This document shows positions 1 through 43,382 of a stretch of 64,000 nucleotides of DNA, in pieces. Each line of letters starts with the position of its first letter. Position 1 is the stretch's first letter. The notes under the pieces are model-generated. The model saw only the letters and a program-made list of their open reading frames with translations. It did no database searches and had not been told where the DNA came from. The stretch comes from Ascochyta rabiei (Eukaryota; Ascomycota; Dothideomycetes; Pleosporales; Didymellaceae): contig NC_082420.1 in the NCBI RefSeq assembly GCF_004011695.2, positions 1 to 64,000 of the forward strand, read 5' to 3'. A program made the translations under genes and the position numbers.

Positions 1-106
1 CCCTAACCCTAACCCTAACCCTAACCCTAACCCTAACCCTAACCCTAACCCTAACCCTAACCCTAACCCTAACCCTAACCCTAACCCTAACCCTAACCCT
101 AACCCT
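1..106. repeat. Telomere repeat array (CCCTAA)n
   Basis: About 17.7 uninterrupted copies of CCCTAA, the C-rich strand of the TTAGGG telomere, start at base 1 and end at base 106, where CTTCC breaks the period. The orientation (C-rich strand reading inward) is that of a left chromosome end, so the assembly appears to reach the true telomere. Confidence 0.98.
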
Positions 107-3100
107 CTTCCTACACTAAAACCCTAACACTTACTCTTACACTTTCTCTTCTTTACTCCTACTTTCTTTCTTCCTTCTTCTAACCCTTACTCTTACACCC
201 TCTCCTACTTCTAAACCCTCCCTCTTCCTTACCTTTACTTACACTTACTACTCCTTTTACACTCATCTCTACTCTTTCTCTTTTACCTCTACTCTTCTCT
301 TCTTTCTCTTCTTTTCTCTTACCCTACCCTCTTTCCATACACTAAAACCCTAAACCTTACTCTTACTTACACTCTCTTCTACTTTCACCTTAACCTCTTT
401 TTTTCTTACTCTTTCTTAACTCCTTCTTCTTAACTCTTTTTCTCTATCTTTTTCTTATCTCTTTTCTTTTTTACTCTTAACACTTACCTTCTCCTACCTA
501 CCTCTTTTTAACTCCTTACTCTCTTCTTCACCTTACACTTACCTTCTTTTTCCTTCTTTACAACTCTAAAACCTCCTTCCTTCTTTTTTTCTTTTCCTAC
601 TCTTTCCACTTACTTCTCTCTACTAACCTCTTTTCTAACACTAAAACCCTAACACTCTTCTTACTCTAAAACCCTAACCCTTTTCTCTACTACTACTACT
701 TCTACCTCTACTCCCTTTTTCCCTTTTCTTTTCTTTTCCTCTACTCTTTTCTATTCTTTCTTCTACTTTTCCTTCTATCCTTACTTCTCTTTCTACTACT
801 ACTTTTACTCTTACTTTCTTTTTCTTACTTTCTTCACACTCTACTTTACTTTTCTTCCCTCTCTTCTATTTTCACCTCCTTCTCTTCTACCCTTTTTTTC
901 CCCAACCCTTAAACTCCTCTAACTCTTCTTTCTAACTTAACCCTACCCCTTACCCTTACACTCTTCTTCTTTAACTCTCTTACTCTCTTTCTCCCTCACC
1001 CCTACATTTTCTCCCTCTTTTTCACCTTCACTTCTACTCTCTTCTTCTTAATTCTTCTTCTTAACTCTCCTTCTCTTTCTACTTTTTTACTCCTAACACT
1101 TACTTCCTTCTACTTACTTTTTTTTCACCTCTTACTTTCTTCTTTAACCTACACTCACCTTCTCCTTCTTTTTCTAAAACTTTACTACAAAACTCTCTTT
1201 CTTCTTTTTTCCTTTTCTCACCTTTCTTTTCCTCAACCTTTACCTACTCTTCCTACACCAAAACCCTAACACTTTTCCTACACTAAAACCCTAACCCTTT
1301 TACAATCTAAACTCCTTCTCTACTACTACCTCTTCTACTACTTCTACTACTTCTTTTCTCTTTTTACTTATTACCTCTACTTTCTTCTCCTTTTTCCTAC
1401 TTTCTTAACTCTTAAACACTACTTTTTCTTTAACTTATTCTACTTCTTCCTTCTCTTTCTTCTACTCTTTTCTACCACTTACTACATCTTTCTCTTTTCT
1501 TCTACTTTTACTTAAAACCCCAACCCTCTTCCTACACTAAAACCCTTATACTTACTCTTACACTCTTCTTTATTCTTACATTAAAACCTTTACACTTTCT
1601 CTTCCTTATCCCTACTTTCTTCCTTCTTCTAATCTTTACTCTCTACTTCTCTCCTTAACTCTTCCTCTTACACTCTACCCTCTCTTACTCTTAAATTCTT
1701 CTTTCCTCCTACTTTCTCTCCCTCACCCTTACCTTTACTTCTACTTATTTCTACTTTCACCCTCTTCTCTACTCTCTCTTTCCTACCTCTACTCTTCTCT
1801 TACACTTAAACCTTACTCCTTACTTTTACTTACACTCTTACCTCTACCTCTTCTCTTTCCACACTCTCTCCTACTTTAACCCTAACCTCTCTTCTTACAC
1901 TAAAACCCTAACCCTCTTTTTACTCTAAAACCCTAACCCTTACACTTATTCTCTCCTTCTTCCTTACTCTACTCTCTTCCTTACTTTACTCTTCTCTTTA
2001 TTCTACTCTCTCCTACTTCTTCTTCTCTTATCTTTTTCTTCCCTCTACTCTTCTACTCACAATACCTATTCTCTAATCCTTACTACTTTTCTCTATCCTT
2101 TCTACTTTTCTTATCCTTTCTACTTCCCTTATCCTTTCCTTTCCTTACTCTACTACTCCTAATCTTCTCTACTTTTAATAATCTTTCTTTAAACTACTAC
2201 TCTCTTTTCCTATTCTCCTTCTTCTCTCTTTTTTAAAACTTTAAATTTTACTCTTCTAACTTTTCTCCAAACCCTATCTCTCTTCTCACACTAAAACCTA
2301 ACTATTACTATTACTTTCTTCTCTACTTTCTCTCACTCTATTCCTTACCTTCTTCCTAACACATACACTTACTTTCTCACTTACCCTCTCTCTATCTTAC
2401 TTATTCTCTTTCTACCTTTCTCTTCTCTCTCTAATTTTTTACTCCTAATACTTACTCTCTTCTTCTTATCTTTTCTACTCATCTTTTCCACTTACTTTTC
2501 TCTACTACTCTCTTTTCTAACACCTTAACTTTCTTCCTTCTCTCTTTACACCTATATTTACTCTTTACTCTATCTTTTACTCTACTAACTTAATTTTTTT
2601 TTACTTTTCTCTCTAAAATTACACTTTCTTCCTATACTAATATTCCCACCTTTATCCTTACACCTTCTTTCTCTTACTCTTACTTCTTCTCCTACACTTA
2701 ACCCCTACTCTTCTCTTTTATTCTTACTCTCTTTCTTACAACTTACTTTCTTTATTTTTTAAAACCTTCTACTTTTATCTCTCTTTTTAACCTTCTTCTC
2801 TCTTCTTTTCTTTTATTTACACTACTTTTACTTCTTACCCTACTAACTTTTCTTTTCTAAACTTATACTCTCTTTCTATACTAACACCTACCTATTATTC
2901 TTACTCTCTTCTTAACCTACTTTACTCTCTTATCTTTCTTTCTTAAACATTATTTTCTTCTTAACTAACCTCTTTTAACTTCTTTTCCTTTTCTTCTACT
3001 TCTTTCTTCTATCCTTACCTCTTACTTTCTTTACTCTATTCTTATTCTTTCTACTTTTCTAAATTTTCTTCTTAATCTCTCTCTTCTTTCTATCTCTTAT

Positions 3101-3702
3101 CTCTTTCCCTAAACTCTTTATAAACTCTTTAAACATATACTCTCTACTTTTTACTTCTTTTTATACCTTTTCTCTTCTTTTCTCCTTATTTACTTCTTCC
3201 TTAACCTTTTTAAATTTCTAACAAACTACAACTTTCCTTTTTACTTTACTTTTTCCTTTCCTTCCTCTTTCTACACTTTTTCTCTTCAACCTTCTTTCTT
3301 TTCTCAACTTTTACTCTTTCTAATCTTTCTTTTCTTTTCACCTTCTATTTAACTACTCTTTTATTTCATACATCTTTTAATAAACTAACTTCTTCTTCTA
3401 CTTTCTTCTCTTCTTTTTAATTCTTTCTTTTCATCTTTCTCTATTTTCTACTCTTTTTTCTTCATTTACTATCTTTACATCTTAATCACTTTAAATATCT
3501 TTTCTAATACTTTTACACTCTCTCTTTATTAAATACTACATTTAACTATCTTTTCTATCCTACTAACACTCTTTTAACAATTTTTTACCTTTTTCTACTT
3601 CTCTTCTTACTTTATCCTCTCTACTATTCTCTTCTCTTAACAATTCTTTTATTTCTCTTTTCTTTCCTTTTCTTCTTTTATACATCTCTTAACCCTATCT
3701 CT
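107..3702. repeat. Subtelomeric tract without any G on the + strand
   Basis: Reading every line from 1 to 3702 I find only A, C and T; the first G is at 3703. The tract is mostly C/T with isolated A. Telomere-like motifs of the form ACACTAAAACCCTAAC recur near 111, 337, 638, 663, 1252, 1278, 1532, 1897 and 1921, with a weaker one near 2287, and none clear after that. The segments around 111 and 1521 resemble each other over about 35 bases. No gene is visible. Its opposite strand is C-free and purine/T-rich. Confidence 0.93.
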
Positions 3703-4722
3703 GCTACTTGCGCGCTGTTATACTGCTGCATGAACAACGCTACTCTAATTGCTACTACCATTGCGTTGCTGAAAAAAATTCGCCTTAAAACCGCTCTCTG
3801 TACCGCTTATCTATCTCTACAACTGCCTCTTCACTCTTGTGTAACACTTAACGGGCCTACCGCCCACCCACTTTCTCTTCTTCACCCTGCTTACCTGCTA
3901 CTCTTCTCTATCCCGCTTCACGGTCTTAAACACCTCCCCTCCTTCACTCTTAACCGCATCGCTCCGGGGGCACATCCACGGGCCCCCCCGCCCAACCCTC
4001 TACCCCCCTCTCCCGTGATACCTTATCACAGGCCCACCGCCCACCCTTATTCTACTCTCTTCTCTCCTTCATCCTTTGCTCGTGATGCCTTATCACGGCC
4101 CCACCCACCTCCCCTCTTTCTCCTTTACCCTCTACCGCCCTGCCCAACTGCTTTGTAACACCTGACGGGCCCTCCGCCCGCCCCTCTCTCACGCACTACG
4201 GCATCTACAGGTTCAGGAATGCCTTTCTAGGCTGCGGCACCACAATCGGATTTGCCAAACTTCCCCTAACTACTGTTCTATCTTGTGACAATACTATGTA
4301 AACGCCCAAAACACCTTGCTCCACGTCATTTTTATCCCGTTCTATCTTTCTAATCCACCTGATACCCTGTTCAAATGCCCTTTCCCTCTACCATTTATTC
4401 TTATACCCGATTTACAAAGCAACTAACCCTGCCTAATCTAAATTCGCGCGATTAACGCGATTGACGCCCTCTTGCACGAACAACTTCTTGTACCTCTCCT
4501 ATCCACCATCCTGCTGGCTCTTCTACCTATTGCGCATGTCTTTCTTAACTACTCTACTATCTATCCAAATTTACTTTGTCCTGACTCTCACTTTCTTCAA
4601 TACGCACGGCTGCTTTCGGATAGGGACTTACTTGGTTTGGTCTGCTCTCTCCGGATTGTGGGCTCTTCCTGGATCGGGGGCTCTTCTTAAATGATTGGCT
4701 CTTACTACTTGGGGGCACTGAT
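3703..4722. other. Subtelomeric transition sequence, no supported gene
   Basis: Base composition becomes normal abruptly at 3703. Several short open frames exist, but none has protein-like composition or a recognisable domain. Two near-identical interrupted inverted repeats of 15 bases, GTGATACCTTATCAC at 4015-4029 and GTGATGCCTTATCAC at 4082-4096, sit in similar C-rich surroundings with CCCACCGCCCACCC-like blocks. This suggests a degenerate subtelomeric repeat unit. Confidence 0.5.
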
Positions 4723-5320
4723 GTGGACTCCCTTGGCTTGCAGGGACCACTTTCGGGCCACTTTGGGGGACTACTTTCGGACCACTTAGGGTGGCGCACT
4801 ACTTGGCGCGCTACTTGGGGAACCACGTGGGGAACTACTTGGGAACCACTTGGATTGGGGGACCCACTCGGGTTGGACGTGCCACTCAGGTGGGGCAACC
4901 ACTTGGGTTGACGCACTACTTGTGGAACTACTCGGGGAACCACGCGGGTTTGTGCTAACTACGCGGCTTGATGCTGACCATGTGACTATGTGGATTGATG
5001 CTTACTGCGCGGTTGATGCTTACTAGCGGGTTAAGGTTAAGCTGACTATGCAGGTGGTGCTGACTACGTGGATTGGGGATCCGCATGGGTTGGGGGCTTC
5101 ACTTGTCGGGGCTCTACTTGGGTTGGGGGCTCTACTTGGTCGGGGGCTCTACTTGGGTTGGGGGATCCGCATGGGTTAGGGGCTCTACTTGGGTTGGGGG
5201 TTCTACTTGAGTTGGGGATCCGCATGGTTGGGGGCTCTACTTAGGTTAGGGGCTCTACTTGGGTTGGCGGGTATTACTCAGGTTGGCGGGTATCACTCGG
5301 GTTGTGGGGACTACTTTGGT
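4723..5320. repeat. G-rich subtelomeric minisatellites
   Basis: Two adjoining degenerate tandem arrays. From about 4730 to 4930 the unit is roughly 12 bp, variants of ACTACTTGGGGA / ACCACTTGGGGA. From about 5060 to 5310 the unit is about 20-25 bp, variants of GGGGCTCTACTTGGGTTG with interspersed GGGGATCCGCATGGGTT. The + strand is G/T-rich here, the reverse of the neighbouring C/T-rich G-free tract. Open frames crossing it are repeat translations, not genes. Confidence 0.8.
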
Positions 5321-5498: not shown

Positions 5499-8400
5499 CT
5501 AGTCTGCTAAATACGACTGCACATGCCCCTCCTCCCAAGCATATAGGAAACGACACATCTGGCTCGCGTCTCTCTGGCCCATCTTGATCTTTAATCCGAG
5601 CCACTTGTAAAGCCGGAGCTCATCGCTACGTGCACAATCGCGGCGTCTTGCATCTGCTGCTCCAGCCATGGCGTGCACATCAGTGGCTGGCAGGCAAGCA
5701 GCGCAGCTACTGCTCTCTGGAGCACTCTATCGTACTGGCAAGGCACATGCATCCCTTATGTCTTAAACGCACCCTGTATGCTTGTTTCCTCCCACTTGTT
5801 GCAGATGGCTTGGGGCGCCCAGCAGTAAAAACACCGCGCATACTTCTCCTACTTCACTTAGTGCATAGATTTCACCTTAGACTCCATTAATATCATCTGC
5901 GCTCCGCTGGCCTTTGAACAGTCCTTCCAGTCGTGGCGCGCCGGGTCAGCCTGAGTGGCTATGCAGATGGCGCACGCATTGCTCCAGCGCTGGAAGTGCT
6001 GCTCTAGCCGCTCCAGGTCATATACTTTTTGTTCCGTCCTTCGCTATTGCTAGATCTTAACCCTCTGCTCTTTAACGACTATAGCTCGCTCTATACATCT
6101 GCGCTGCTCCTCTGCTGCCACCGCCGCGGTGTCGGCCTGCGTCTCCTCTGGCTCTTCCTGCTCTTCTTCGACGGCTTGTTGCTTGGTACTACCGGGGTGT
6201 CGCTCGCATAGATCACACTTCGACTCTCCTATCTTGCATTGCTGCCTGTTCTGTCTGCCGTCCATGTGCTTGTCTATCGCGATTCGCCGACAGGATTCGA
6301 CTGTCATGAACTCCTTTGCAGGTCGCTCCAGCTTGTAGCCAAGCGCCTTCTCTACCCTCCCCTCTTTTGTTACATAGCACGCTCTTATAACAATAGACTT
6401 GCTGTCAAGCCCCGTTTGTCCCGCCCGGCGCTCTCTTGCACATATTGGAGCAGCAGGGGACACATGGCAACGTGGATCACCACCCGGACGCCTGCAGCGT
6501 CGAGCCTAAGACCTAGCATGTTCGTGGCTGTACAAAGCTTCTCTATGCCTAGGGTGAAGCTTCGCACTATGCGTGCCTTTTCCTCGTCTGAGCCCATCTG
6601 ACGGTAGTATGCAGAGCACTGCAGAAGCTTCGCAAGCCGTTTCGTCTCGTCCACAGTTGGACAATAGACGATGATCTGCGCCTTGGGTCCGTACCTACTC
6701 CTCTTCGCAGCCACAAGCTTAATAAGTACTTTTTCTAGCGTGCCACGTGTGTACTCTAGCACCTGGTACGCAATGTTTGTTCGCGTGGTGCGTTCATCGC
6801 AGCATATGGTTACGGTCTGGGCATCAAGCCCTGCAGTGTGCAAGAAGGCAGGCTGCAGCGTGGGCGGCAAGGTTGCAGTCAGGTAGACAACCTGTGTGCC
6901 CTTCTCCGTCATCTCCACCATCTTGAGGAGGTCTGGCCGCCAGTCCTGTGTCGACTCCAGCAGCACGTGGCACTCGTCTATCACGATACGATCTAGCTGA
7001 TGGAGCATGCGCTTTTCGTTAATGAACCTGCCGAACGCCTTCGTGACTGCGCTCTTAGGCGTCACCAGCACAATACGAGCCCAGTACGGCGGTCTTCTTC
7101 CATCCCACTTCGCGCAGGGGATGCCGAGCTGGTCGCAGCGATCTTGCAGATCGTCTCGCAAGGCATTCAACGGAGCCACGACCACGGAGACGCCGCCTGG
7201 CGAGACGGACGCGGGCAGCATGAACAGCATACTCTTGCCGGTGCCGGTAGCCATAACAACTAGCACGCGCAGCCGTCGCTGCATCACAGCCTCGAGGCTT
7301 TCTTCTTGCTTGCCACGATACTCGGCGTCCGGCCGTCCAGCGAGTCGCCTGAACTCTGCCTTGAGGTCCACCATCGCGAGCGACGACCAGCGCTGGAGCG
7401 CCTGCTTCTCTTGCTGCGCTACCATCTCCGCGCGAACACCGGGGTGCATGCGGCCGTCCTCCCAGGCAGATGCAAACTCCAGCACGCGATGCCAGTCCAT
7501 GCTCACCCGCCGGAACTCCTCCCGCTCAGCCATGGTCTGAAAGGGAGACTCCATCATGGAGCGGCCGTAGTTGCCCTCCTCTGTTTTAAGGCTGTGGCCG
7601 GACTGCAACGCTTGCGCGTTGCTCTTCGCCGGCGCTTTGTTCCAGTAGAGCACTTCCAACCAGTCGCGTGCTTGTCCATCTCTTGCCAGCTCTCAGTGGA
7701 TGGCTGGGTAGGCATGCCGCCAGGCGCGGGTGCCGAGAGCGGTGTTCATGTACTGAAAGGTCTGCTCGCGCAGGACACAGCGTATGCGATCGGTGCCCCA
7801 GTACCCGTCTGGGTTAGCGGATCGTGCCTTCTCACGGTCGGCTTCGCCGTACTCGTCTCTGTTGTCGCTCTCTTCGCTATCGCTCTCGTCGCCCCACTGC
7901 TCCTCCGGCTCTGGCTCCCAGATGAAAGCGGTAGGGCGGGCAACGCCATTGTGCAGCATCTGGAGATCATCTATGAACGGTCGACCGAGCCTGAGGAAGT
8001 ACACCACCAGCTCACCCACCTCCTGGGGAACATAGCGGTGGATTGTCTTAACACGCTTGCTAAAGCTATACCCCTTGTGGTACGTAGTAGTGAAGGATAC
8101 CAGGCCACCCTCTACAAACACCCCCTGATACCCCACCCCGTCTGCACTGTTCTCGCACTGTATCGAGGTAATCTCTGTCCCGCGACCAGGCCCGCCGCCA
8201 GACATGTAAACAAGCGTGAAGAGGCCTTCTTTAAACCGACGCACTCCTTTCATGTACCTAGCTACAGCGTTATTGCGCCATAGCGTCCGTTCCGGCCGTT
8301 GTGTGCTATCTATCCCACGAATGAATCTCTCCCTTAGCGGAGCCTCGTCCAACACCCGGTCTAGAAGCCAGTCTTGCCATCTATCTAGCTGGTTGTCAGG

Positions 8401-10143
8401 GTGCTTCAGAAAGCTCCAGCCCGTAGCCAGCTCGGCTGGCTGATCGACGAGTTTGTCCACAGACACCTCTGGAAGCGGGGTAGTCCCAGGTCGCACGCAA
8501 CCCCTTTCGTCTAGATCCAAGAGTAGGACGTCCTTAAATAGCTGCAACCGCACCGTCTCGCAGAGTCCCTTTACCATCGACCGGAGATCGGCTAGCAAAA
8601 AGCTCTGCTTGTCAATGAGAAGCCGATCTCCATCCCACGACACGATACCGGGAGTATTACGTCGCTTTGCCTGTGTTCTAGCTAGCGTACGCAAGCGGAG
8701 CATTCGATTCATAGGACTGGGTGTGCCTTTGAAGTTGGACAGCGTCATAAACCGTTTAGACATGTCTTTAACTAGCTCATACGCAGTAGGTGCTGTACAA
8801 GGGTCTTTCTGAAGCGCTTTATCTCGCTGGCAGCGGGCATGATGCACTACGAGCGCTTTCGAGGTAGTGATCAAAGCAGACAGCGTTGGCGAGAACTCGT
8901 GCGCCGGAACCCACCCACCGCCATGGTGATCAGGCTTGAGGCCGAGGACAGCCACTCCGCTCAGCAGTGCGCTCTCGTGCTTGTCGCCAGTCAGGCTGTG
9001 GTTGAGCAAGGCGATCCAAAAGCGCAGGCATCGCTCTTCCAGTTTCTCTTTCTTCGCAGCGTCGTCTGAGCGGGCTATTTGCTGGAGTGACACTAAGAGG
9101 GCGTCTTGCGTGCTGGTAAGTTTGTATGGCGGCCGCTCGACCTGGTCATATATGCGCCACAGGTAGCAGAGGATGCTTACCAGCTTCTGGCTGTACTTCT
9201 TGATCGTACCGACTCGATGCCTAGCGTAGAAGGGCCGCTCGTTCGATTCTGCGCCTGCCTCACGTCGCTCGATAATCTCCAGTGCGAGTCTGCCAACAAC
9301 CTCAGCTTGGCTGCTATTGAACGCTTTTTGTATCAGCCGCTCTATAGCTTTGCAAACATCGCGTAAGCCCGTGTTGTCAAACGCCACTTCTTCCTTCCCA
9401 CGCGCGTCTACCTCCCCACCAGCTAGCTGTTTAGCGCGCAGAAGTGCCGCCCTTGGGATACCTTGTAGGTGCGGGACCCATTCTGTGAGCTCTAGCCACG
9501 GATCAGCCTGCGAACGGATGCCCTCTTTAATCTTATCCTGCGCTGCTGCTGCCTCACGCTCTTCTCGCTGATGCTGGCGATCTGCCTTCACTCTCTGGGA
9601 GATGTCTGCTAGAGTCGCAGCTCCAACGCTCGTCTCGACTGCAACATACGCCGGCCAGCCAACAGCTCTGAACAAGCGCTGGCAGGATTGGCTGTCTCGC
9701 CATACTCGGTTGCGCGAGTGCTTGCTCTTTTGCCTCATATCTCCCCCTCGCTTTTGTTCGTTCACCTAGCCATGCTTATCCTTACAATGTTTCTGCATGC
9801 CCTGCAGCGAGATGCAGGTATACCAACAACGCTCCGACAAGCATACCAGCCCGTCTTCTCGGCTTTTTAGACCAAAGACGGGCTCCTTAGCCGGCCTTGG
9901 TACACGCACGTCTCCTAGACTCCACGCAAGGTTTGGTAGCGCGCGTACAGCTGCCGCCAGGCTCTTGCGCGTAGCGACTGTGACCTTGGGATGGCGCTCT
10001 TTGAGGTGCGTAACGATCTGCGCTGGTGGAATAGCGGTGGCACATGGTTTACAAACTACGACTCGAAGTTCAGGCTGGTGTTTAAACAGCTGCGCAAATA
10101 GTTCTATAGTGTAAGGAGCAGAAGGGACATAAGTGGGCGCTAT
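5499..10143 (-). pseudogene. Telomere-linked RecQ-family helicase (TLH), inactivated
   Basis: RecQ-type DEAD/DExH helicases of this kind sit next to telomeres in many fungi. Reading leftward, the product has four parts. First is a DUF3505/OrsD-like Cys/His zinc segment (10140-9770, with CKPC and a C2H2-like end). Next is a long conserved middle region with SGGGPGRGTE (9765-7693). Then come the helicase motifs ATGTGKS (Walker A, about 7251-7231), IDECH and TATLPP. Last is a Cys-rich C-terminus with CAIC and CFYCWAPQAIC, ending at TAG 5499-5501. All three reading frames are used. In-frame stops lie at 9766 (TAG for expected TGG), 7693 (TGA), 6050, 6044, 5858, 5849 and 5756, and frame changes near 6440 (inside motif VI, QESGRAGR) and near 5610. 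The expected start is ATA at 10141-10143. The stops fit C:G to T:A change. Full length would be about 1,545 codons, usual for TLH. The domain calls are recognition; loss of function is inferred. Confidence 0.9.
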
Positions 10144-10404: not shown

Positions 10405-12129
10405 ATGCACTGGTTAGCAGCATTAGACAGCGCCGCAGAGCGGTTTGATGGCGGTCGTCGGAGCTTTCCTCTGGCCAGCGAAGCTGACTTTGTTCGCAAC
10501 TACGCGTACGAGCCGCCGAATGAGGACTACAAGAAGCTCTTCTTCTGCCGAGCGACCATCTCACGCTCGCAGCGTGATCCAGGTGCTCGTCCGCACAGCG
10601 CAGGATGGCTGATCCCCACCCGTGACGATGCCAGCGTCTGCAAGCCCGTCTTCATTGCCTACTCCGTCTTGTCAGCGATCTGGCTTCTGCGCGAGACGCT
10701 CGCCGACGACGTCCTGCCTGACAATATCTGGGATCGTCTGGTCTGCGCGGCCGAGTCGCTTGCGGAGGACGGGATGGAAGAGCCGCCGTCTGCGCAGAAG
10801 CCCTTTGCTTCCCCTTCACAACAGGCCTCTGCTCCACCCCCGCAACAAAAGAAGCGGCCACACCTATCTGCGCCGGCCCCTACACCAAAGCGCGCTTGAA
10901 CAACCACCAATAAGACACATCCAGCCAGCCCTCAGCTGTCACAGCCTAGCGAACTGGATGAGCAGCTGAAAGACTCCCCTCTGCACATCACTACTATCTC
11001 CAACAACAACCGCTGTGCGGAGCAAAAACGCAGCAGGACACTCGCCACTTCGCGTGCGAAGAAGCGGCTTGCCCTTGGTCTGGTAGCACCTGGCGACAAG
11101 GCTCCTCTTCTAGAGCAGGCTGCCTACACCTCTATTGTGCAAAAGGACAAGTCCGTCGTTGCCTGGATCATTAAGCAGCCAGTCTCTGATGATACGGACT
11201 TCTACAGCTCCACCTAAACTCCCTACCTCACGGCCTGCACCCTTCTAGAGAAAGCGCGCGTGCTTGGAAACCAGTCCTCTCGGTACCACGCTGCCCAGTT
11301 CCTGCAGGCTTGGCGAGAACGTGGCTCACCCTTCAGAGGTAGCGGCGAGCTCGCTGGCAGCCAGAGCAGGACCGGTGCGGGAGCTAAGCGCTTGCAGCTG
11401 CTGAGTGTGCGCAACGATGCTGACAGGGATTTCTGCTTTGCCTGGAACATGTGCACACGTTACGAAGCAGAGCTAGCAGCTGTCTATATCGAGTCTTGAT
11501 GGGCGTCAGCTCTCCTAGGTCAAGCATACTCTAACAAGATAGCGCAGATCCAGCATAACAACTTTGTATCTAGCAATAACAGGACGCGAAATCAATACAG
11601 AAAGGGACAGATCTGCACAGAGGCAGTTGCAGCGCTAGTAGAGTTAGTTAGTCCCAACGCTACTAAGAAGGACAAGCAGGTGTTTAGACGACGGTTAGGC
11701 CAAGCCATGCGCTAGTACTCCATTAGTCAGGAGCTAGGCTGGGGCATTCTGACCCTGATACCACACGACGAGATTACGAATTGCTGGATAGAACGCACCT
11801 TCTGTGTAGGCCAGCTGCATGTCTGGATTAAGCTACTTAAGAAGGAGTGTCCAGACATTTGTGCAGCTAGCAAGGCACTTAAGAACTGGTTAGGGCCAGA
11901 GGGAATTGCTGGCGGGCCCATCAACGAGAAGAAAACGCTAAGCATTGAGGCGGAGGCGCCAGCAACCATCTACGAGGTGGAAGAGATTTAAGACAGCGAA
12001 GACGACGAAACTGACAACAGCGTTAACGACAGCACCAGAGAGCAAAGTCATGCTTCGCTGAAGAGTCCTACGCCAGCTCCGCGGTTGCGTCAGCTAACTT
12101 TGCTTGAATTGTTCCATCCTGTAGAGTAG
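10405..12129 (+). pseudogene. Unrecognised 574-codon frame divergent from the TLH, broken by five stops
   Basis: From ATG 10405 one reading frame runs without any frame change to TAG 12127-12129, interrupted only by TGA 10897, TAA 11215, TGA 11497, TAG 11713 and TAA 11989. Codon-like composition persists through every interval. Each stop is one C-to-T step from CGA, CAA or CAG, so point mutation rather than indels silenced it. The first block (about 164 residues) has a hydrophobic/aromatic half and a Pro/Gln/Lys-rich tail. Later blocks are basic with Trp and paired Cys (ERTFCVGQLHVWIKLLKKEC), followed by an acidic region. The last residues, RQLTLLELFHP, loosely resemble a PCNA-binding (PIP) box. 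I do not recognise the family. It starts only 260 bp from the TLH start, head to head, suggesting a shared promoter and a linked role at chromosome ends. Confidence 0.7.
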
Positions 12130-12440
12130 ATGTTACCTGCGCTTAACTCTGAACATTGTGCTACATACCTTATTAATACTGCCCTACAACATTACGAACA
12201 TTAATATTGAAACATCTACTATATTCCACTCACGTACCGTATGCTTGATTCTTCTAGAAATTCAACATACAATTGGGACGCACTTTGTACACGTTCCGCA
12301 ATCGTTGCAGCAATATTTGACTTCAGGAACAGCGAACAAATTCACGCTGAAAAAGCGAACAAATACAGTCGAGTGTCTGTGCTCACGCTAAAATTTACAT
12401 AGGCAAAGCGAACAAATACACTGTCTTTGTTCGTATAATC
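12130..12440. other. AT-rich gap with a short iterated motif
   Basis: No gene is visible. The 12-mer GCGAACAAATAC or a close variant occurs three times (near 12336, 12355 and 12404), and the complementary TTTGTTCG occurs near 12425. This could be a worn transposon end, but no partner end was found. Confidence 0.35.
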
Positions 12441-13435
12441 ACTGGGAGGCATACAAAGGAGCGTACTGTTAGCACCTACTATTTGCTTATTATTAATAGT
12501 TATAAGAGCCACAACTCTCTTAAATTCCAGCAGTACTGCAAGGATAGCAAGATAATTACTCTTTGCTTGCCTTTCTACTTATCACACCTTACACAGCCTC
12601 TTAATATGGCTTGTTTTACTGCTTTAAAGAAGGCGTATAGGTGCTAAGCCAAAATACTTATACGTAACTAGATTAACTATATTACAAAGACAGAGTTCCT
12701 ACCATGCTTTATACGCGCCTACAACGCTGCAATTACTTCTAGGAATATCTAGGGAGGGTTCTGAGGCGCTGGACTGGTCCTGTTTGACCTATAACAGGTT
12801 ATAAGCAGCCTTAATATAAAGCTGCGCACGCTATCACCACCACTACCCGTTAACAACGAGCTCTGGCAGTCGCAAACCCTAAGCAACACCCTTAAACTAG
12901 GGTCGCAATTAACGCTTGTGAAGACAAGGATTCAGAGGTATATAGATAGCTCGCCTACCTCTATAGTTAAAGCGTTTAAGAAGGTCTTAAAGGGGGCAGC
13001 TATAATTGCGCACAAGCTAGTGTTAGCGCAACAGGAGATTGCTAAGCTTTAAGCTGCTAATAAGGCAGCTACACAACAAAAATCACACAAAAGAAAGCAG
13101 GTTAAGAAAGAAGGTACTCTAGTAGTTAAAGAGGGCTAGCAATTAACAGCCCTAAAAGAGTTTGGGGCGCGTTGTAATAGTAAGAAGGCAAAGAAGCAGG
13201 TGCGTGCTAAAGTGGGTGAGCCTTCCTAAAGGCGCTGTGGACGGTGCAGTAAGACTAGACATAACGCGCGAACGTGTAAGAAAGAGGTAGAAGTAGTTTC
13301 TAAATAATATTACAGACTGTACTGCAGTTTGCAGTGTTAATTTAGGTTGTTTTAGGTTATAATGGGGTGGAGTTTGGTGGGGGCTTGGCAAAAGTGACTG
13401 ACTCGTCCGGTGACCGGCTCGTCCGTGGGGTACGT
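12441..13435 (+). mobile_element. Pogo/Fot-like DNA transposon, left-truncated and RIP-mutated
   Basis: Translation of 12450-12790 shows the DDE_1 (pogo) transposase core with many stops: a LLIINSYKSH-like second catalytic segment, then LTQPLNMACF. Past 13200 a C-terminal CGRCSKTRHNARTC knuckle (Cys-x2-Cys-x4-His-x4-Cys) is readable. The right terminus, read inward from 13435, begins ACGTACCCCACGGACGAGCC, followed by a second CGAGT unit, and is flanked by TA at 13436-13437. The matching left terminus is absent, so the element is truncated on that side. It interrupts the pogo fragment that follows. Confidence 0.75.
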
Positions 13436-13555
13436 TATCTCTGCAAGGGCAGCCTCTATTAACATTGTAGCGTTAAGTTATGGTATTAAGGAGATTGGTG
13501 TATTTTGGTGATTGTGTGTATCACGCGAATCTGTGCATTACGCGCACGGACATGG
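13436..13555 (-). mobile_element. 5' end fragment of a second pogo family
   Basis: These 120 bases match 62127-62246 almost exactly, differing only by transitions. They contain the transposase N-terminus on the minus strand (an ATG followed by IEAALAEI-like residues) and the terminal repeat ending in CGCGCACGGACATGG, followed by TA at 13556-13557. The rest of the element is missing, cut by the element to the left, which inserted at TA. Confidence 0.8.
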
Positions 13556-13557
13556 TA

Positions 13558-14883
13558 GTTCCGCGCTAGCGTCCCTCCGACGCGTCAACCTAGCCACCCA
13601 TACTTTTTAACCACCTACAACTTCACTACTACTACTCTGTTTCCCTTACATTCTTAACTATTAGATGTAGAAACGCTGTTGCTTAAATTCTATAGAGCAG
13701 GATTAGGTAATTAGGTAGCTACACGCAGGTGCAGGTACCTATAAAGTTACTAGTTACTTTAGCTATTATAAGCGTACTATCTAAAATCTTTATAAACGTT
13801 TTAACACTATAGGAACTATACGTAATAGACCTTGCTTAGGCAGACCTAAGATACTATCTAATACGCAGAAGAAGCTTCTACACCACACAACACAAAAGAA
13901 TCCCTAGATTACCTACTCTAAGCTGGCTAAAGTTGCCTAGATTATTCTACCTAACAATACTACTACCTATAAGCTAAGTAAGTTAACTATCTATTATACA
14001 CTTAAGTAATACTATATAACCTGTTAGAGGAGTAAAAAGAGGCCTAAACTTACTTATAGACATACTCTCTAGCGTCTTTAGTTTACCTAAAAGTATTAGA
14101 CGTTTAATTAGCGTTAGCATATAGTTAAGTTTAGTAATAAGTGCTCTGTTTAGAAGGGCTCTGGCTATAAACAGCAGTAGGTGTTTTGCTACAATAATAA
14201 GAGATAGAAGCTAAGAATGATTACTGGGATCTCTACTAGTCGTCTACCTGCTTAGATGGTGTAGGGAGCTATATAGCTAGATGCACATAGTAGACTACAG
14301 TAGAGTCTACTTATTATAGAAAGGGATCCTAATGCTCTACGTGGTGGCTATAGCAGCTAAAGTTACATTAAAACACTTAAGTAAGGTCTCTTACCTTACT
14401 ATTATAAGTCTTAGTTTTTTATGCGGGAAAACGCGCGTATACACACCTCTTACGCTATACAGACGTTTATAGCAGATTACAACATTACAACTCTCCTATA
14501 GCTAGCTTACTTACCTAATCTTAACCTAATTAAACACCTCTAGTAGCGCCTTAAACAGATAAAGCATAAGCTCTACCTACAGTTTAACAACTATAGCAAG
14601 GTAGAAGAGCATTAGGATAAGTTTTGTAAGGCGTTAAAGGAGTGCTGGCGTTGTATCCTAAACTTACTTATTAAGAAACTTATTAGTAGTATGCCAGCAC
14701 GCCTAAGTGCCTGCAGGAAGGCAAAAGGCTAGTAAACAAAATACTAGTATAGAACAGTACAACCTTAAAATTTAGAGCGTTTTAACTATGTGTAGCTATC
14801 TTAATTGCCTTACAAAGTGGGGTGGTAGGCGTGGTGATGATGCGGGGATTCGCTTAGTGGAACTAACTTTTAACGTAGTACTG
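13558..14883 (+). mobile_element. Tc1/mariner-like element, copy 1 (RIP-mutated)
   Basis: The sequence is homologous to 62249-63577. Despite stops it still translates to a DDE_3 Tc1-type transposase. The PYSPDLNPIE-like catalytic segment is near 14500, and the C-terminus reads like the ACRKAKGWQTKY tail common in fungal Tc1 elements near 14710-14740. The right end is ...GACG-like sequence then TAGTACTG, followed by TA 14884-14885. It lies inside a Gypsy reverse-transcriptase region. The proper left end is hidden because a pogo element inserted in its terminal repeat. Confidence 0.8.
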
Positions 14884-14885
14884 TA

Positions 14886-17800
14886 GCAAACTTGTTTAAA
14901 TAGACTGCTTAATACTAATCTAAGTTTTAAAAGCTTAAAAGAGGCACTATTATCTATACCTACTCTATACTACTTTAACCCTAAGTATAACACAAAGATT
15001 AAAACTAATACATCTAATAGAGTTATTGCAGGAGTTATGTCCTAGTAACACCTACACAATAAATAGTACCTAGTAGCTTTCTACAGCAAAGTACTCTCTA
15101 GTACTAAGCTTAACTAGGAGATACATAACAAGGAACTATTTGCTATTTTATAAGCATTCTACAAGTAGAGATCTAAACTTACCTCTACTATAAAACAGAT
15201 CTGTGTCTACTCTAACTATTAATCCTTAGAATATTTTACAACTACTAAAGTTTTAAACGCTTAGTAAGCACAATAGGCTAAAGCTCTTACTCTGTTTGAC
15301 TTCCGTATTAAATATACCCTAGGAAAGAACAACAAGCGTGCTAATATCCTTAGTTAATATGAGCAAGATCTAATAAACCTTAAATCTGCCTAGAAAGATT
15401 ACTAATCATAAGTACTATTAGGACTACAGCAGTTACACAAACAGATTGTTTCTAATTTAGCTTAGAAATACCTAGCTAAAACTAACCTAGCTGTATCTAC
15501 TATCTAATTAATACAACATGTTATAGACCAAGATTTACTTAAATTAATCTAGCCCTTATTAAAGAAAATCAGAAATCCTTTAAGTAAGAACGCTTATCTC
15601 TAGTATCGCCATATTAGATCTATAGTAGACTCCTACTCTATTAGGATTAACTATATATGTCTGCTAACTCCACCTTATACACCTACCTAATTAAAGAAGC
15701 CTATAACTAGCTAGTAACTGCTTATCCTAGTGCTAAGAAGACTTATTAGCTGCTGTTACAACAGTACTACTAGAAGGGGATAAGTGCTACTTATGAACGG
15801 TATAGTTGGAATTACATTCCTTCTTATAAACGTTACCTAAAACAGACCTAACTCTATAGATACTTGCATCCTTTACTAGTACCTAATAAACTAATGCAAT
15901 ATCTATATATTAACTTTAAAGACTTCTCTAAAAACAAATTAGGCTATAACTAGATTATAGTTATTATTAGTTACTTAACTAAATAAGCTATAATAATCCT
16001 GTACTATAAAACAATTACAGTATATAGGATAGTAAACTTGTTTATAAAATAGGTATTTTAATTTAGACACACCCTAAAACTATTATAAGTAACTAAGGAC
16101 TACAATTTATATTAACCTTTTAGTTAGAATTCTGCTAAATTATAGGCGTAAAGGTTAAACTATCTACAGCCTATTATAAGGAATTCAACAGCTAAACAGA
16201 AATTATAAATAAGTACATAGATTAGCAACTTCGCCTGTTTATCTTGTACTACTAAGATAACTAGTCTAAACTCCTCCTAATTATTAATTATACCTAGCTT
16301 ACTCTGCTACATTCCTTTATTAGAATATTGCCTTACTAAACTATCTATAGTAGTAAGCCTAAACAAAGTTAGGATTAGAACAGGGCTAGTTTAGGTACAA
16401 ACCTAGTTAAGAAACTTAATTATAAGGATGCCTTAGTATTAGCTACCTATATACATAACGCCTAGAAGGTAGCTAAAGAAAATATAGAGAACGCTTAAGA
16501 CTGTATGCGCTCTGTAGTTAATAGCTACTATTACCCTATAAACTAGACTGTTAGTAATAAGGTGTATCTTTCTACCTAGAACTTAAAAATAGAGCAACTA
16601 AGCTAGAAGCTATCTAACAAATAGGAAGGTCCCTTTAAAGTCTTAGAGCAAGTAAGTTACTTATATTATTTAAAACTCCTAATAGGCTTAAAAATATATA
16701 ATGTGTTTGCACTAAACGTCTTGTGTAAGGATCTAAATAACCCCTTACCTAGACAAGAAGCCCTAAAACCTGCAGGTATCCCCATCTAAGGCGTAGAAGA
16801 ATAGGAAGTTTAAGATATTTTAGCTAGTAAGATTATCTGCTAAAAGCTTAAGTACTGTATAAGCTAGGTTAGCTACAACCTAGACCTAACCTAGTATTCT
16901 GCAGAGAACTTTACAGGAGCTCTATATAAGCTAAGGTTGTACTACAACAAGTACCCTAATTAACCTAGGCCTCTATAGGCACTAACTAAGTAGATTAAAG
17001 CATAGGAAGAAGGCTAGGAGATTTAGTAAGCATAAAGACATCTTAATTTAGAAAAGGATAAAAGAAATCTATTAAATCTAAAATGCCTCTAATTGCGTTG
17101 TATATTAGAAAGGTAAGAAAAAAAGAATAAGAGAAAAAACCCTTCTTACTATACAAATAAGGAAACCCTCTTATAGGCCCTTAATGTTACTTATAACAGA
17201 GGTACTGTTAGCTAGGATATCTAGCTTATTAGCACTACCCTTCTTCTTAGGAGATAGAGCAGGTGCTAGCGTTGCTAACACCTTTCTAACTCTAGTGCCT
17301 TAACAGACTATCTCTTGTTGCAGCTTAACCACCTCCCTAGTTAACACTCCTACATTCTCTTCTAACTCCGCCATCCTCCTCCTCTCTAATACCCCTTCCT
17401 TAGTTAGGCTAACATAGTACTAGTATAGCATTACGTTAGCAGCAGAGACTCCTTTAAGCTAGGTAGTTGCTACCTACACTACACTTACTAGATCCTTTAC
17501 TAACTCTGTAACAACACGCTAGGCATCCTACCTTAACTCTGCTGCCTTTACTACTAACTCTGTATCCTCACCTTCTTCCCTTACCTCTTACCTCTACATA
17601 GTAAGGTTACCTAAAAAAGTTGCGTATTCTAGACTAGCGTAAACTAGAACCTAGAAACTATTAGTATTAGGTAAGAACAGGGAAAGATTATACTTACTAG
17701 GTAATACTTCTTATTTTTAAGTGTGTAATAAGTACACTTAGACAATAACGCCTTAACGAAGCTGTAGTTTACCTCTCTTACTCTTGTATAGGCGTAAACT

Positions 17801-18562
17801 AAATAAATACAGATAACCCTATAGGCCTCTGCAAGAGCTCTAGGTAGGACTAGTATTAGTATAGTAACTAAGTAACAAAACGTATAATTATTTAGTATAA
17901 ATGTAAGGCAGCGTAGTAGGTGTACTTACAGCAAGAAATAGTATCTATTAGAGCAAGGAAAGGTATAGGAATTGTCTGTTTATATACACACGCAACGCGC
18001 CTAGACAATAACAATAATTATAAACAGATAGTATACTAAATAACAAAGGAAACAGCTTATTTTTACCTCAAAATTAGGTTATAATGTTACAGGCAAGAAA
18101 GAGTTGTATTTACCTTAGACAAAAATAATAACACAAAATTAAAATAACATAACACTAAGCTACTAATACCCTAAAAAAAGGCTAAATAGGTATAATCCTG
18201 CTAGAGGATATTAATATAGATTTTTATGCGTATTAGGATAATCTCCCTATATAAGAGGGGGGGTAGTGTAACATACTAGTTGCCTAAAGCCTTGTCTAAT
18301 TCCTCTCTAACTTATTACTAACTTAGTGCTGTTACATCCGTGTCCACCCTACACCCTAGGCTAGTACTCTAATTCTTCTTAACTCTTATAAGGTATAAAA
18401 GGCACAAGGTTAACAGGTATAGAGAGCTAGTTTTTAAGCATTCTTTTGTATAAGACCTATAGGAATAGAACAATTCTCTATGTAAACTATCCTAGTGCTC
18501 CCATACACCTCGTAGCGGATACCCACATCTTTTAGAGACTTCTATCATCCTGCGTCGTTACA
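14886..18562 (+). mobile_element. Ty3/Gypsy chromovirus-type LTR retrotransposon, 5'-truncated, RIP-mutated
   Basis: Right of the Tc1 copy the + strand translates, with many stops, to the end of a Gypsy reverse transcriptase and RNase H (SNRVIAGVMSQ near 15010; HNKELFAIL and YFTTTKVLNA further on; YTLGKNNKRANIL near 15320). Integrase-like sequence and a chromodomain-like tail (about 16850-17020) follow. 17050-18240 is non-coding or holds only degenerate frames. A polypurine tract (AGAGGGGGGG, about 18254-18263) directly precedes the 3' LTR. The gag and protease regions and the 5' LTR are not present in the window. Confidence 0.8.
18267..18562 (+). repeat. 3' LTR of the Gypsy element
   Basis: The LTR starts TGTAACATAC right after the polypurine tract and ends GCGTCGTTACA, giving the usual TG...CA ends over about 296 bp. 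A TATA box (TATAAAA, 18394-18400) lies in the expected place. An inverted, diverged copy is at 19136-19398. Confidence 0.75.
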
Positions 18563-19135
18563 GAGGACCTACAGATCCTCTTAAGGCACTATAGACACTT
18601 AGTGTCTGTTAAGGTATCTCCTTATCTGTAGAGGGAGGTGTTACCTTATACTCTACTAGCTCTCCTATAGGTAGGTTGTCTTAGTCCCTCTCTAAGGACA
18701 GCGAGCCTAGATAATTTAGTTTAAGACTTATAGTAGCTTAGGTCTATCTTTAATTGTAATATAAGAGTAATTAGAATATAAAGAGTGTATAAGGTAATTA
18801 TAAGGGAGGATAGGGTTAAAGAGGATAGCAGGTATATTAAGGTACGTAGTGTGTAGTAACAAGACTAATTACTAGAGTATTAGCAATAACCTCTAACACC
18901 TTTATATAGTCTGGGCTAACTAGCCCTATGGTAGCTCGCTAAGACTGGCAGAGGTACCCCCGGACCTAGCGCCTAACAGTGGTACTAATAAGTACTGTTC
19001 TGGCCGCAGTCTCACTATCAAAGTGAGCATTGTTACCTTTTTAGCATCCTTGGCACAGTAGGCAGAGCCATGGCCTTAACACCTAGAAAAGCTAGCTAAC
19101 AAAGCAGAATAGTAGCTAGTAGCTAGTGGAGTAAG

Positions 19136-19398
19136 TATAACGACGCAGGATAATAGAAGTCTCTAATAGGCGTGGGTATCCGCTATAAGGTGTATAGGAG
19201 CGCTAGAATAGTTACGTAGAGAATTGTTCTATTCCTATAGGTCTTATACAAAAGAATACTTAAAAACTAACTATCTAGACCTACTGTTCCTAGTGTCTTT
19301 ATTCCTTTTAAGTAATAAGAGAAAATTAGAGTACTAACCTAGATGTAGAATAGGAACAGGATATAAAAGTACTAAGTTAGAGATAAGTTAGGTATTAA
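19136..19398 (-). repeat. Inverted, truncated solo LTR of the same Gypsy family
   Basis: Read on the minus strand this matches 18267-18562 over most of its length, for example around the shared TAGAGAATTGTTCTATTCCT. Differences are mainly transitions. The terminus is TATAACGACGC instead of TGTAACGACGC. The promoter-side end is truncated where the next repeat begins. Together with the + strand LTR it makes a long inverted repeat with a 570-bp spacer. Confidence 0.7.
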
Positions 19399-19556
19399 GG
19401 CCACAGCTCTGCCTACTGTGCTAAGCATGCCTTAAAAAGGTAACAATGCTCACTTTAATAGTGAGGCTGCGGCCAGAACAGTACTTATTAGTATTACAGG
19501 TTAGAGGTGGACGCATCCACATGCCTGAGGCTAAGAGTAAGGCTAAGAGCCTAACA

Positions 19557-19829
19557 ATATCTCCCCTCTTAACAAGGGCCTGACCCAGGCCAGACAACCC
19601 CTGGTTACAGGTTCTGACGTGCCACTACACTTAGAAGGATCTCTCTTATCCCAAGTACTAGACCTTCCAGCAGCAACGGCACTAGCCTACGTGGGACTGT
19701 GCCTTAGCTCACGGATAAGCCGGCTTAGCTAAGACTAGACCTGTGCAGGGTCAACTATCTGTTAGGTAGGCTAGGTCTACTAGCATAATTTAAACCTATA
19801 CTATACTATAGCTATTAAAGTAAGTATAA
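19557..19829. other. GC-richer island between repeat copies
   Basis: Sequence between the second and third repeat copies is less AT-rich at 19557-19740 (for example GGCCTGACCCAGGCCAGACA) than its surroundings, as if it had escaped RIP or inserted later. No coding signal was found. Confidence 0.35.
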
Positions 19830-20111
19830 TATTAAGGCTATAGCTCTACCTACTATACTAAGCATGCTAAATAGGTAATAATGCTTACTTTAATAGTAAG
19901 ACTGTAGCTAGAACAGTACTTATTGCTATTACAGGTTAGAGGTGGACGCGCTACATGCCTAAGGCTAAGAGTAAGGCTAAGAGCCTAACATTAGGTATAA
20001 GTTAGGACAGAGACCGTTAGAAGGACTAGTGCTTTATAGTAAGTGTATATACCTTATACACCTTCTAGCTAGCTTTAGTATTGTCTCTATAGCTTTTAAC
20101 CTGTTTATTAA

Positions 20112-20275
20112 CCTAAACCTATTCTTTATCCTATTCTTTAACCCCCCCTAGAAAAGCTAGCTAATCAAGCAGGATAGCAGCTAGCTAGCTAGGGTTGTCC
20201 CTAGGGTTTTCTACCTGTTCTTTAACTTGAACCTGTTCTTTAACGTGAACCTGTTCTTTAACCTAATCTGCATAT
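20112..20275. repeat. Tandem repeat of an 18-bp unit
   Basis: Units of the form GAACCTGTTCTTTAACNT recur: three clear copies at 20214-20263 and degenerate ones from 20100, interrupted by a GCTAGCTAGC-rich stretch. Non-coding. Confidence 0.65.
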
Positions 20276-20887
20276 AGGGTAGAAAAGCTGTTTAAGGAGA
20301 AGGTGGTAGGGCTAAAGCAGCGTGAGAAGTGGTCGTTAAGGTCTAAGGAGCTTAAGGATGCTAATAACAACCTTAAGACAGATAAGAAGGTTGTAGCAGC
20401 ATTTAAAGCAGCCGGAGCAAGTATTAAGAATTCAAGATGCTAGCAGTGGTTTGTAAGAAGGAAATTTCAGAGGTCAGCGTTTAAAGAGTGAAAAGAATAA
20501 AGAATTGCAAAGCATGATTACCCTTAACTAAACCTGCCGTAGAAGGATCCTGCAATGACTCTTCCTTTAAAGACTATAGATTAGACGCTAGGTATTATAA
20601 ACTTTTGCGCGCTGTTATATAGAGACTTAACAAAACCTTTGTAAACACTATAGAGAGCAGGACATGGTTACAATATTAAAAATCAGTTAGGCCACTACTG
20701 CCAAAACGACAACAACTAGATAAGCCGAATTTATGGATTATATAGAGCACTCAATTTAGAGAGCTTAAGGTTGTAAACTTCCTGAGCCCTACAACCTACT
20801 GATCGTCACTAATTTATTTGCGGAGCAGTTGCAACCTTAAGAGACTAAAGTTCGGCAGCACCTGAAAGATCGGTCCGACTCCCAGTT
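20276..20887 (+). other. Degenerate coding-like remnant left of the LINE
   Basis: From about 20279 to 20445 the + strand has a lysine-rich open reading (KLFKEKVVGLKQREKW, then VVAAFKAAGASIKNSR). It then breaks into stops. I do not recognise it; it could be a broken gene or part of another transposon. The sequence runs directly to the LINE target site. Confidence 0.35.
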
Positions 20888-20900
20888 TCAAAGCGTTACC
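20888..20900. repeat. Left target-site duplication of the LINE
   Basis: TCAAAGCGTTACC here recurs at 26086-26098, directly after the LINE tail. A 13-bp direct repeat at both borders is what target-primed reverse transcription leaves. The first few bases may belong to the ATCA tail. Confidence 0.85.
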
Positions 20901-24669: not shown

Positions 24670-25043
24670 TATCAGAGAACTAGAAGGCATAATAAGAGGC
24701 TTTAAAATTGCAGCTACTATAGCTACTACAGCACAGGACGTCTAAGTCTTTACAGACAACCAGGCAGCTATCCTAAGACTAAAAACTCCTTTAAATAAGC
24801 CTAGACAGGCTTAGCAAATATGCTGTATAAAGGCAGCTAAAACTATTAAAGATAAAGGAGCCACAATTAGCCTTAAATAGGCCCCTAGCCACTAGGACAT
24901 TACAGGAAATAGGAAAGCAGACTCTCTAGTAAAAGAAGTAATAAAAAAGAGGCCTACATCTAACTTTATTAGCATTGCTATAACTAGAATTTAAGTTAAA
25001 GCTATTATAACAGATAAATAGGATTATAAACTAGTTACCTATA

Positions 25044-25512
25044 ACGTACTCCACAAGCGAGCTGCCCACCCAAGCGAGCTGCCCACCCAAGCGAGCTGCC
25101 CACCCAAGCGAGCTGCCCACTTGATTTTACACCAAAAATCATGATTTTTACACCTTAATAACTTCTTCACTACAAGGTAACATTCTCTAAAAATTTTAAT
25201 ATTACGCTGCACCTATATACTCTATATAGCGTTAAAACTACTAAGCTCTAGCTATTAAAATATAGAAGTTATTAAGCCAAAGCTAAAATACAGGGACTAA
25301 TTAGACACACTTCTCTATATCTCAATAGATTGCAAAGGTAGAGCTTTAATATCTTTAAGAAATAAAACATTAGACCTCTATAATAGGAATATTAAAACTA
25401 TAGGAAATTCTGTAATATAATTAAGAAGTTATTAAGGTGTAAAAACCACGATTTTTGGTGTAAACTCAAGTGGGCAGCTCGCTTAGGTGGGCAGCTCGCT
25501 TGTGGAGTACGT
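25044..25512. mobile_element. MITE (non-autonomous pogo relative) in the LINE
   Basis: A 469-bp element with inverted ends ACGTACTCCACAAGCGAGCT, flanked by TA (25042-25043 and 25513-25514). The left arm has four 17-bp units AAGCGAGCTGCCCACCC, the right arm only two. A further inverted segment (TTTTACACC...GGTGTAAAA type) extends inward. It has no coding capacity and splits the LINE between its RNase H and its zinc knuckle. Confidence 0.9.
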
Positions 25513-36215: not shown

Positions 36216-36217
36216 AC

Positions 36218-39970: not shown

Positions 39971-40454
39971 TTGTCACCCACAGTACGTGTCTCACCTGTG
40001 AGGCTATTCCTAGGGACAAAATGCTTGCAGTGACCGACAAGACCGAGTGTAGATCTAGGGCAATGTAGAAACAGCGGATTGTCCATGAGTTTGGCCGGGT
40101 GTGCGCTGGTTCCGGTATGGAGTAACACAGAATGGTGAACAATCTGGTCCTCTGGTGTCGGTATCAGGTTGCCACATCTATCGTTCCTGTCGCTCACCAC
40201 AATTGCAGAAGCCTTCTGAGGCCCTAAAAAAACTTTGAAGGTACAGTAGCTTTCTGTAACGGAAGACGAATGTGAAAGTTGGTAATTGACTGTGGTATGT
40301 TAATATCGGCAGTTTCGGTTTGCAGACCACATTTCAGACGTTCCGCATGTGCACACAACTGCTGGTGGTGTTTCCTCATCTTCAACGTTATATTCGAAGG
40401 CTGAAGCGCATTTTGCCTTTCGTCCACGATCGTGTGGAGCCAATTTACTGGTAC

Positions 40455-43380: not shown

Positions 43381-43382
43381 GA

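Follow-up and report, generated by a model that had tools for sequence, protein, structure and literature searches.

In yeast, Y′ elements and type I survivors are helicase-bearing subtelomeric blocks that are spread by recombination and carry short telomere remnants at their seams; they are not known to contain a tract from which one base is missing. MoTeR is a terminal, telomere-associated retrotransposon that carries telomeric motifs and is found beside telomere-linked helicase (TLH) genes. In Kluyveromyces lactis, Nickles and McEachern reportedly described in 2004 a subtelomeric R element of 1 to 2 kb that adjoins the telomere at nearly all ends and that is said to have a strong purine/pyrimidine strand bias and to be homogenized between ends. 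In the portions of the reports available for comparison, Colletotrichum higginsianum carries TLH elements at all 24 subtelomeres in one orientation to the telomere (PMC5576322), X26 of Stagonospora nodorum is a RecQ repeat mutated by repeat-induced point mutation (RIP) (PMC3017866), and FoTeR is a terminal, telomere-associated retrotransposon with telomeric motifs that lies beside TLH genes (PMC12857005). Here we examine the first 64,000 nucleotides of an Ascochyta rabiei contig (contig 16, NC_082420.1; this whole stretch is hereafter the window), in which a tract of 3.6 kb adjoining the telomere lacks G entirely on the + strand, and C on the strand that ends in the 3′ overhang.

Strand biased and directly beside the telomere at most ends, this tract resembles the reported K. 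lactis R element, which may be its nearest precedent. The A. rabiei tract differs in lacking one base over 3.6 kb while carrying the three others, and in its host, a filamentous ascomycete with RIP and TTAGGG telomeres. A likeness to Y′ elements is seen in contig 2, where an internal copy of the tract begins at a seam at position 12444 with the telomere remnant AACCCTAACCCT, as burial of a former chromosome end would leave it. As regards the likeness to MoTeR and FoTeR, no reverse transcriptase domain was identified among the ten window open frames scanned, which are only some of the frames of the cassette. The locus shares with TLH cassettes a RecQ-type helicase in one orientation (as in C. 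higginsianum), long similar blocks at many ends, and RIP damage (as in X26); in the available parts of those two papers, no tract devoid of G or of C is described on the telomere side of the helicase (PMC5576322, PMC3017866). Base composition of chromosome ends is not mentioned in the accessible text of the genome papers for A. rabiei (PMC7341154) or A. lentis (PMC8022934). More generally, no description of a G-free chromosome-end tract was found in the open-access literature, a scope outside which most subscription papers fall. TLH cassettes and, reportedly, a strand-biased telomere-adjacent element in K. lactis are known already; what appears to be new, within that literature, is that one base is wholly missing and that this holds in copies that have diverged.

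The window is the left end of its contig in a chromosome-scale assembly whose 23 contigs total 40,901,820 bases; for the A. rabiei ArME14 assembly, the available published text gives 40.9 Mb and TTAGGG telomeres of ~100 bp (PMC7341154). Positions 1 to 106 of the + strand are the C strand of the telomere (17.7 perfect CCCTAA copies, the last full unit ending at 102), and across the 20 left ends compared, the last base of the telomere array ranges from 47 to 117. A preliminary description of this sequence had claimed that no G lies between the telomere and base 3702. Base counts agree exactly: the + strand has no G anywhere from 1 to 3702, the first G is at 3703, no other G-free run in the 64 kb exceeds 56 bases, and the property recurs at other ends. 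The tract itself (107 to 3702, + strand) comprises 1,778 T (49%), 1,162 C (32%), 656 A (18%), and 0 G in 3,596 bases, an outcome with a chance of ~10^-451 at the G frequency of the flank if independence is assumed. Its inner boundary is sharp, with 17 G already present in 3703 to 3800. The tract is not simple sequence, with 27 of 27 three-letter trinucleotides and 81 of 81 tetranucleotides present. Its texture is one of pyrimidine runs interrupted by TAC and TAAC (observed to expected ratios: AT, 0.33; CA, 0.46; AC, 1.77), and C/(C+T) falls from 0.41 to 0.46 across the outer 2 kb to 0.31 at the inner end. The overhang strand is purine rich, with a grammar unlike that of TTAGGG. An assembly or basecalling artifact is an unlikely cause of the missing G, because many ends and both contig orientations show the same property.

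To the extent that ends could be read, the tract is common to most of them. Twenty left ends were read (19 fetched contigs plus the window; the left end of contig 4 is N, and contigs 22 and 23 were outside the set). The G-free run from the end measures 3,445 to 3,706 bases at 14 of the 20 and is shorter in contigs 6 (1,500), 11 (2,047), 12 (1,013), and 13 (1,651). At the right ends of contigs 1, 2, and 3, no C occurs across the outer ~3.4 kb examined, and the right end of contig 4 is imperfect (6 exceptions in 3,394 bases, four of them in the innermost 94). Genome-wide, and counting the window itself, positions 1880 to 2600 and positions 2600 to 3702 each have at least 30 full-length terminal copies at 97 to 100% identity in one polarity; further diverged and internal tract copies were listed beyond these. 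The places listed for tract and flank lie on the + strand at low and on the − strand at high contig coordinates, such that each faces its own end, and a further set of tract matches agrees as far as it is listed. G-free tracts at internal loci unrelated to telomeres, which the preliminary description had named as a refutation of its idea, were not among them: the internal copies listed all lie within ~80 kb of an end (the innermost at ~78 kb) and run in the same direction.

The terminal copies have been homogenized recently. Variable sites were counted in an alignment of the main-family left ends, 14 in number, which are ~98% identical over the full 10 kb compared; contig 13 was included in the alignment but left out of the counts, and contigs 6, 11, 12, 18, and 19 were outside it. 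The junction of telomere and tract is identical at 12 of the 14, and in contigs 1 and 20 the first telomere-like patch is one base shorter. Variable sites number 20 of 3,583 in the tract and 439 of 6,094 (7.2%) in the flank; within the tract they make up 0.1% of the outer half (2 of 1,783) and 1.0% of the inner half. The telomere-facing half hardly differs from one end to another, and even the tract as a whole varies less than the flank mutated by RIP. The uniformity of the outer half fits recombination initiated at the end. In the flank, C>T and G>A changes affect 83 of 386 CpA sites, 92 of 435 complementary CpA sites, and 116 of 435 and 85 of 435 CpG sites, compared with only 13 of 1,769 CpC and CpT sites together, which is the signature of RIP acting on both strands.

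Over longer times, the tract drifts within A, C, and T, and G is kept out of the + strand. For diverged copies, we tallied 18 chosen segment pairs against the window, selected from the stricter matches rather than comprising all matches; very permissive BLAST rows, including many chance matches at ~60% because three-letter DNA aligns with itself, were discarded. These pairs hold 818 substitutions in 12,672 aligned sites (C/T, 554; A/T, 139; A/C, 91; A/G, 16; G/T, 14; C/G, 4), and only 34 involve G. Recent homogenization is therefore an insufficient explanation for the missing base. In six homologous flank pairs, 61 of 146 substitutions involve G, RIP-type changes included. G was found at 1 of 4,469 aligned sites in 108 to 1862, 26 of 6,830 in 1863 to 2620, and 7 of 1,373 in 2621 to 3702 (0.02% outside and 0.4 to 0.5% inside), and it takes part in 1 of 158 substitutions in the telomere-side segment. 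When the count is limited to isolated changes, flanked on either side by six matching bases, G takes part in 3 of 101. In internal copies, T>C was counted 138 times and A>G, the same mutation on the opposite strand, 10 times, against ~51 expected from 656 A and 1,778 T sites under strand symmetry. The degraded copy in contig 18 has 10 G in 901 bases (TG, 6; AG, 3; CG, 1); degraded copies gain G mostly after T or C, as expected from base composition alone. The tract is clearly not conserved letter by letter, and the initial view that this strand calls for a process restricted to A, C, and T is upheld by copies that differ through C/T and A/pyrimidine changes with G very rare.

Pyrimidine-pyrimidine differences were compared between tract and adjoining flank in single pairs of copies. 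They were more frequent in the tract for the internal copy of contig 21 versus the window (39 of 641 sites versus 1 of 214), contig 6 versus contig 11 (31 of 420 versus 15 of 779), and contig 6 versus contig 12 (31 of 416 versus 19 of 785). The close pair of contigs 11 and 12 showed the reverse trend (0 of 725 versus 6 of 906), and isolated changes between the window and contig 6 showed no difference (15 of 692 versus 6 of 318). Faster evolution of the tract than of the flank is therefore unproven, and different genealogies of tract and flank could yield the same counts.

The tract is the outermost module of a terminal cassette that is common to most chromosome ends of A. rabiei, with uniform polarity wherever this is visible: from the end inward, telomere, tract, pyrimidine-rich flank, G-rich minisatellite, and RecQ-like helicase. 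The flank (3703 to 4640, + strand) contains G, marks the beginning of RIP-like C>T and G>A changes, and occurs at 32 places in the genome at 97 to 100% identity, the window included; strand skew persists there in weaker form (364 C and 144 G in 3703 to 4700). A repeat scan placed G-rich minisatellites (TGGGTTGGGGGCTCTACT and relatives; periods of 11 to 71 bp) at 4644 to 5304 on the + strand, with a base skew opposite to that of the tract. The helicase (6385 to 9765, − strand) reads toward the telomere in two abutting open frames. The frame at 7692 to 6385 contains the Pfam DEAD and Helicase_C domains above cutoff, and its best solved-structure matches are RECQ5, BLM, RECQ1, and RecQ helicases; helicase domains occur in that frame only, and no Pfam family was found in the frame at 9765 to 7693. 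Of the 46 contig ends, 32 have a close helicase copy ~4.4 to 7.7 kb away (16 left ends on the − strand and 16 right ends on the + strand, five in pieces; 97 of 121 candidates scored), and the longest open frame among ends, at the left end of contig 5, encodes 1,359 amino acids with no internal stop. As in TLH cassettes, RecQ-type domains thus stand in one orientation beside many telomeres, with some copies intact. Many further helicase relatives (27 to 77% identity, same orientation, many with stops) occur deeper in the contig arms, at ~1.5 to 150 kb and mostly less than 40 kb from the end, a pattern suggestive of earlier terminal cassettes buried layer upon layer.

Within the tract, telomere-like patches (CTAAAACCCTAAC and variants) are found repeatedly, and three are doublets spaced about 615 to 630 bases apart: 633 to 691 (+ strand; period of 25, identified by repeat and motif scan), 1246 to 1301 (+ strand; ~615 bases further in), and 1878 to 1940 (+ strand). 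The tract contains 10 CCCTAA motifs, mostly inside repeated patches, versus 2.2 expected under an order-2 Markov model. Autocorrelation at lag 6 is strong in the outer half (z = 5.4 versus an order-3 Markov model; z = 4.5 with patches masked, although masking shifts the control), zero in the inner half, and variable in five other tract pieces (z = 1.3 to 4.0). With the patches removed before training, a cyclic model did not prefer period 6 on held-out tracts. The proposal that telomere-like motifs thin out with distance from the end holds for these features, since 9 of the 10 CCCTAA motifs lie in the outer 1.9 kb and the lag-6 signal is confined to the outer half; its companion, that sloppy telomerase laid down the tract, is not supported, because the composition is T 49%, C 32%, and A 18% versus 17/50/33 for CCCTAA, and period 6 is not preferred. 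The repeat period and composition of the tract do not fit derivation from a telomerase template. A period of 6 in the bulk of the tract is only hinted at, and we neither claim nor reject telomeric ancestry for it. Local aligners also detected similarity at an offset of ~617 bases (419 to 834 versus 1036 to 1457). A plain tandem-repeat origin is only partly supported: 617-base units scored 0.87 to 0.91 in global comparison, on a par with random pieces of the tract (0.885), and what we claim is limited to local similarity and repeated doublets. An 18-base tract motif had no match in viral contigs.

The plainest consequence of the composition is that either strand pairs with itself only slightly, a property common to telomere repeats: single-strand folding of the two tract strands averages −0.0007 and −0.0030 kcal/mol per base, compared with −0.12 in flank sequence and −0.07 in random DNA matched for G+C. 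We tentatively favor the explanation that the tract is a telomere-like extension of the overhang strand that does not pair with itself, is spread by recombination between ends, and has its composition held by a constraint on that strand. The tract would act as an extension of the telomere, its overhang strand lacking C as the telomere's does, and neither strand would fold much when single-stranded or copied into RNA. Telomeres here measure only ~100 bp, which may leave the outer kilobases exposed much of the time; telomere-like patches could serve as docking sites for the copying of an eroded, very short telomere, and copying from these sites would spread the cassette between ends. The constraint might take the form of selection, or of competition between copies, against C on the overhang strand, and would act neither through sequence conservation nor through RIP alone or telomerase copying.

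Several observations weigh against this explanation. Selection at 3,600 sites across dozens of ends seems weak for so absolute a rule. The tract may not be needed at every end: it is degraded at the left end of contig 18, and at the left end of contig 19 it is missing, the telomere being joined directly onto a G-rich minisatellite of the cassette type. Some internal copies 12 to 15 kb from an end keep 0.8 to 2.1 kb without G, where a telomeric role should no longer act; these may be recent arrivals. Among the 20 variable tract sites of the recent copies, one involves G (A>G in the left copy of contig 14, its single G within the tract, located at 3464 in window coordinates), a number too small to tell selection and mutation apart. 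The diverged pairs are partly dependent (contigs 11 and 12 are sister copies, and contigs 15, 17, and 6 look alike), and they were found by likeness to a G-free window, which favors G-poor pieces.

Stated more broadly, it is possible, though doubtful, that the overhang strand is actively kept free of C by a process specific to that strand (selection on it when exposed, deamination within R-loops or overhangs, or synthesis from three letters) while the sequence drifts, such that the tract would be a second, sequence-free kind of telomere with composition as its sole conserved property. The complete lack of one base over 3.6 kb, kept through divergence, suggests that composition rather than sequence is what is maintained. 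It makes testable the old question of why C is so rare on the overhang strand of telomere repeats; diverged copies that differ in age and in their distance from the end, with a RIP-mutated flank alongside, provide a built-in comparison.

The main rival to the overhang-strand constraint is strand-specific mutation, which we consider rather unlikely. Under this explanation, the overhang strand is often single-stranded (through resection, lagging-strand gaps, or R-loops, the last possibly arising from transcription toward the telomere), and its C is deaminated to T while the cytosines of the other strand are protected. This would account for the loss of G in all contexts, ApG and GpG included, for the weaker skew that runs on into the next kilobase, and for G being rarest nearest the telomere in diverged copies. 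Transcription running on past the helicase, which is oriented toward the telomere, would yield RNA of the C-free strand. By estimate, a hybrid of C-free RNA is favored over the DNA duplex by 0.12 kcal/mol per bp and the opposite RNA is disfavored by 0.17, figures that are only suggestive, since the flank favors hybrids of both RNAs (by 0.11 and 0.05 kcal/mol per bp). However, the tract stops abruptly at 3702 instead of fading out, G>A does not exceed C>T in the present flank once RIP contexts are set aside (2 of 666 versus 11 of 1,103), and G>A would have to be hundreds of times faster than A>G.

Passive inheritance is improbable. A G-free, low-complexity founder would have grown by slippage and tandem duplication and spread by recombination too recently for G to return, in keeping with the evident recent homogenization, the short imperfect repeats, the local similarity at ~617 bases, and the gain of G in older and inner copies. 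The substitution spectra already strain this account: copies 1 to 13% diverged carry hundreds of C/T and A/pyrimidine changes, isolated ones included, and G among them is several-fold too rare.

That the tract is a product of RIP or an escape from it, in which removal of G deleted TpG and CpG targets and left a survivor, is quite improbable. RIP is strong at CpA and CpG in the flank, and the tract has just 100 targets, all CpA on one strand, with CA at 0.46 of expectation; only 4 of the 100 have changed, all in the inner half. Tract CpA, however, changed less than the flank rate predicts (P ≈ 8e-6 overall; P ≈ 0.05 for the inner half alone), and the pattern of RIP-generated DNA (C>T and G>A in CpA and CpG on both strands, with other contexts spared) was found in the flank and not in the tract. 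RIP cannot alone give zero G, because it spares ApG and GpG and affects both strands: in the AT-rich stretch at 14 to 26 kb of the window, 1,569 of 2,053 G stand as AG or GG, and the tract has none, its loss being one-stranded. RIP was thus rejected as the sole cause and may have contributed. The AT-rich region as a whole extends from 12000 to 26000, and its G, mostly in AG or GG where measured (14 to 26 kb), is typical of old RIP.

Least probable of all is three-letter synthesis, in which the tract was copied from a G-free RNA, by telomerase or by a different reverse transcriptase, and has since aged inward. It would account for the outer-to-inner gradients of C content, telomere-like patches, lag-6 signal (surviving patch masking), and G content, and for pairs that differ 3 to 13 times more in tract than in flank at pyrimidine-pyrimidine sites, nearly all within A, C, and T. 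However, the tract is unlike CCCTAA in composition and in local grammar, the held-out cyclic model has no preference for period 6, the faster divergence is not seen between contigs 11 and 12 or between the window and contig 6, and 18 of 20 isolated changes between the window and the internal copy of contig 2 are C/T, as ordinary point mutation gives.

Elsewhere in the window, a scan yielded no Rfam match at the gathering score and no tRNA. The interval from 32949 to 51504 carries ordinary fungal gene frames, including a FAD-binding protein, a Zn2Cys6 regulator, a GMC oxidoreductase, and a metallo-beta-lactamase-like frame that falls below the Pfam cutoff and has many named relatives. The protein encoded at 32949 to 33926 matches an A. 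rabiei protein with 99% identity over 92%, whereas its best A. lentis hit reaches 83%. An open frame at 52322 to 53770 (+ strand), with no Pfam match, has a long stretch of Asn/Asp codons and, after it, a cysteine-bearing protein with, by eye, an apparent signal peptide and membrane span. Two repeats lie close together further in: a 14-bp minisatellite (ATGGGATGAGATGA, 14.7 copies) at 54045 to 54249 and a 183-bp tandem repeat (2.5 copies, 79% matches) at 54953 to 55415.

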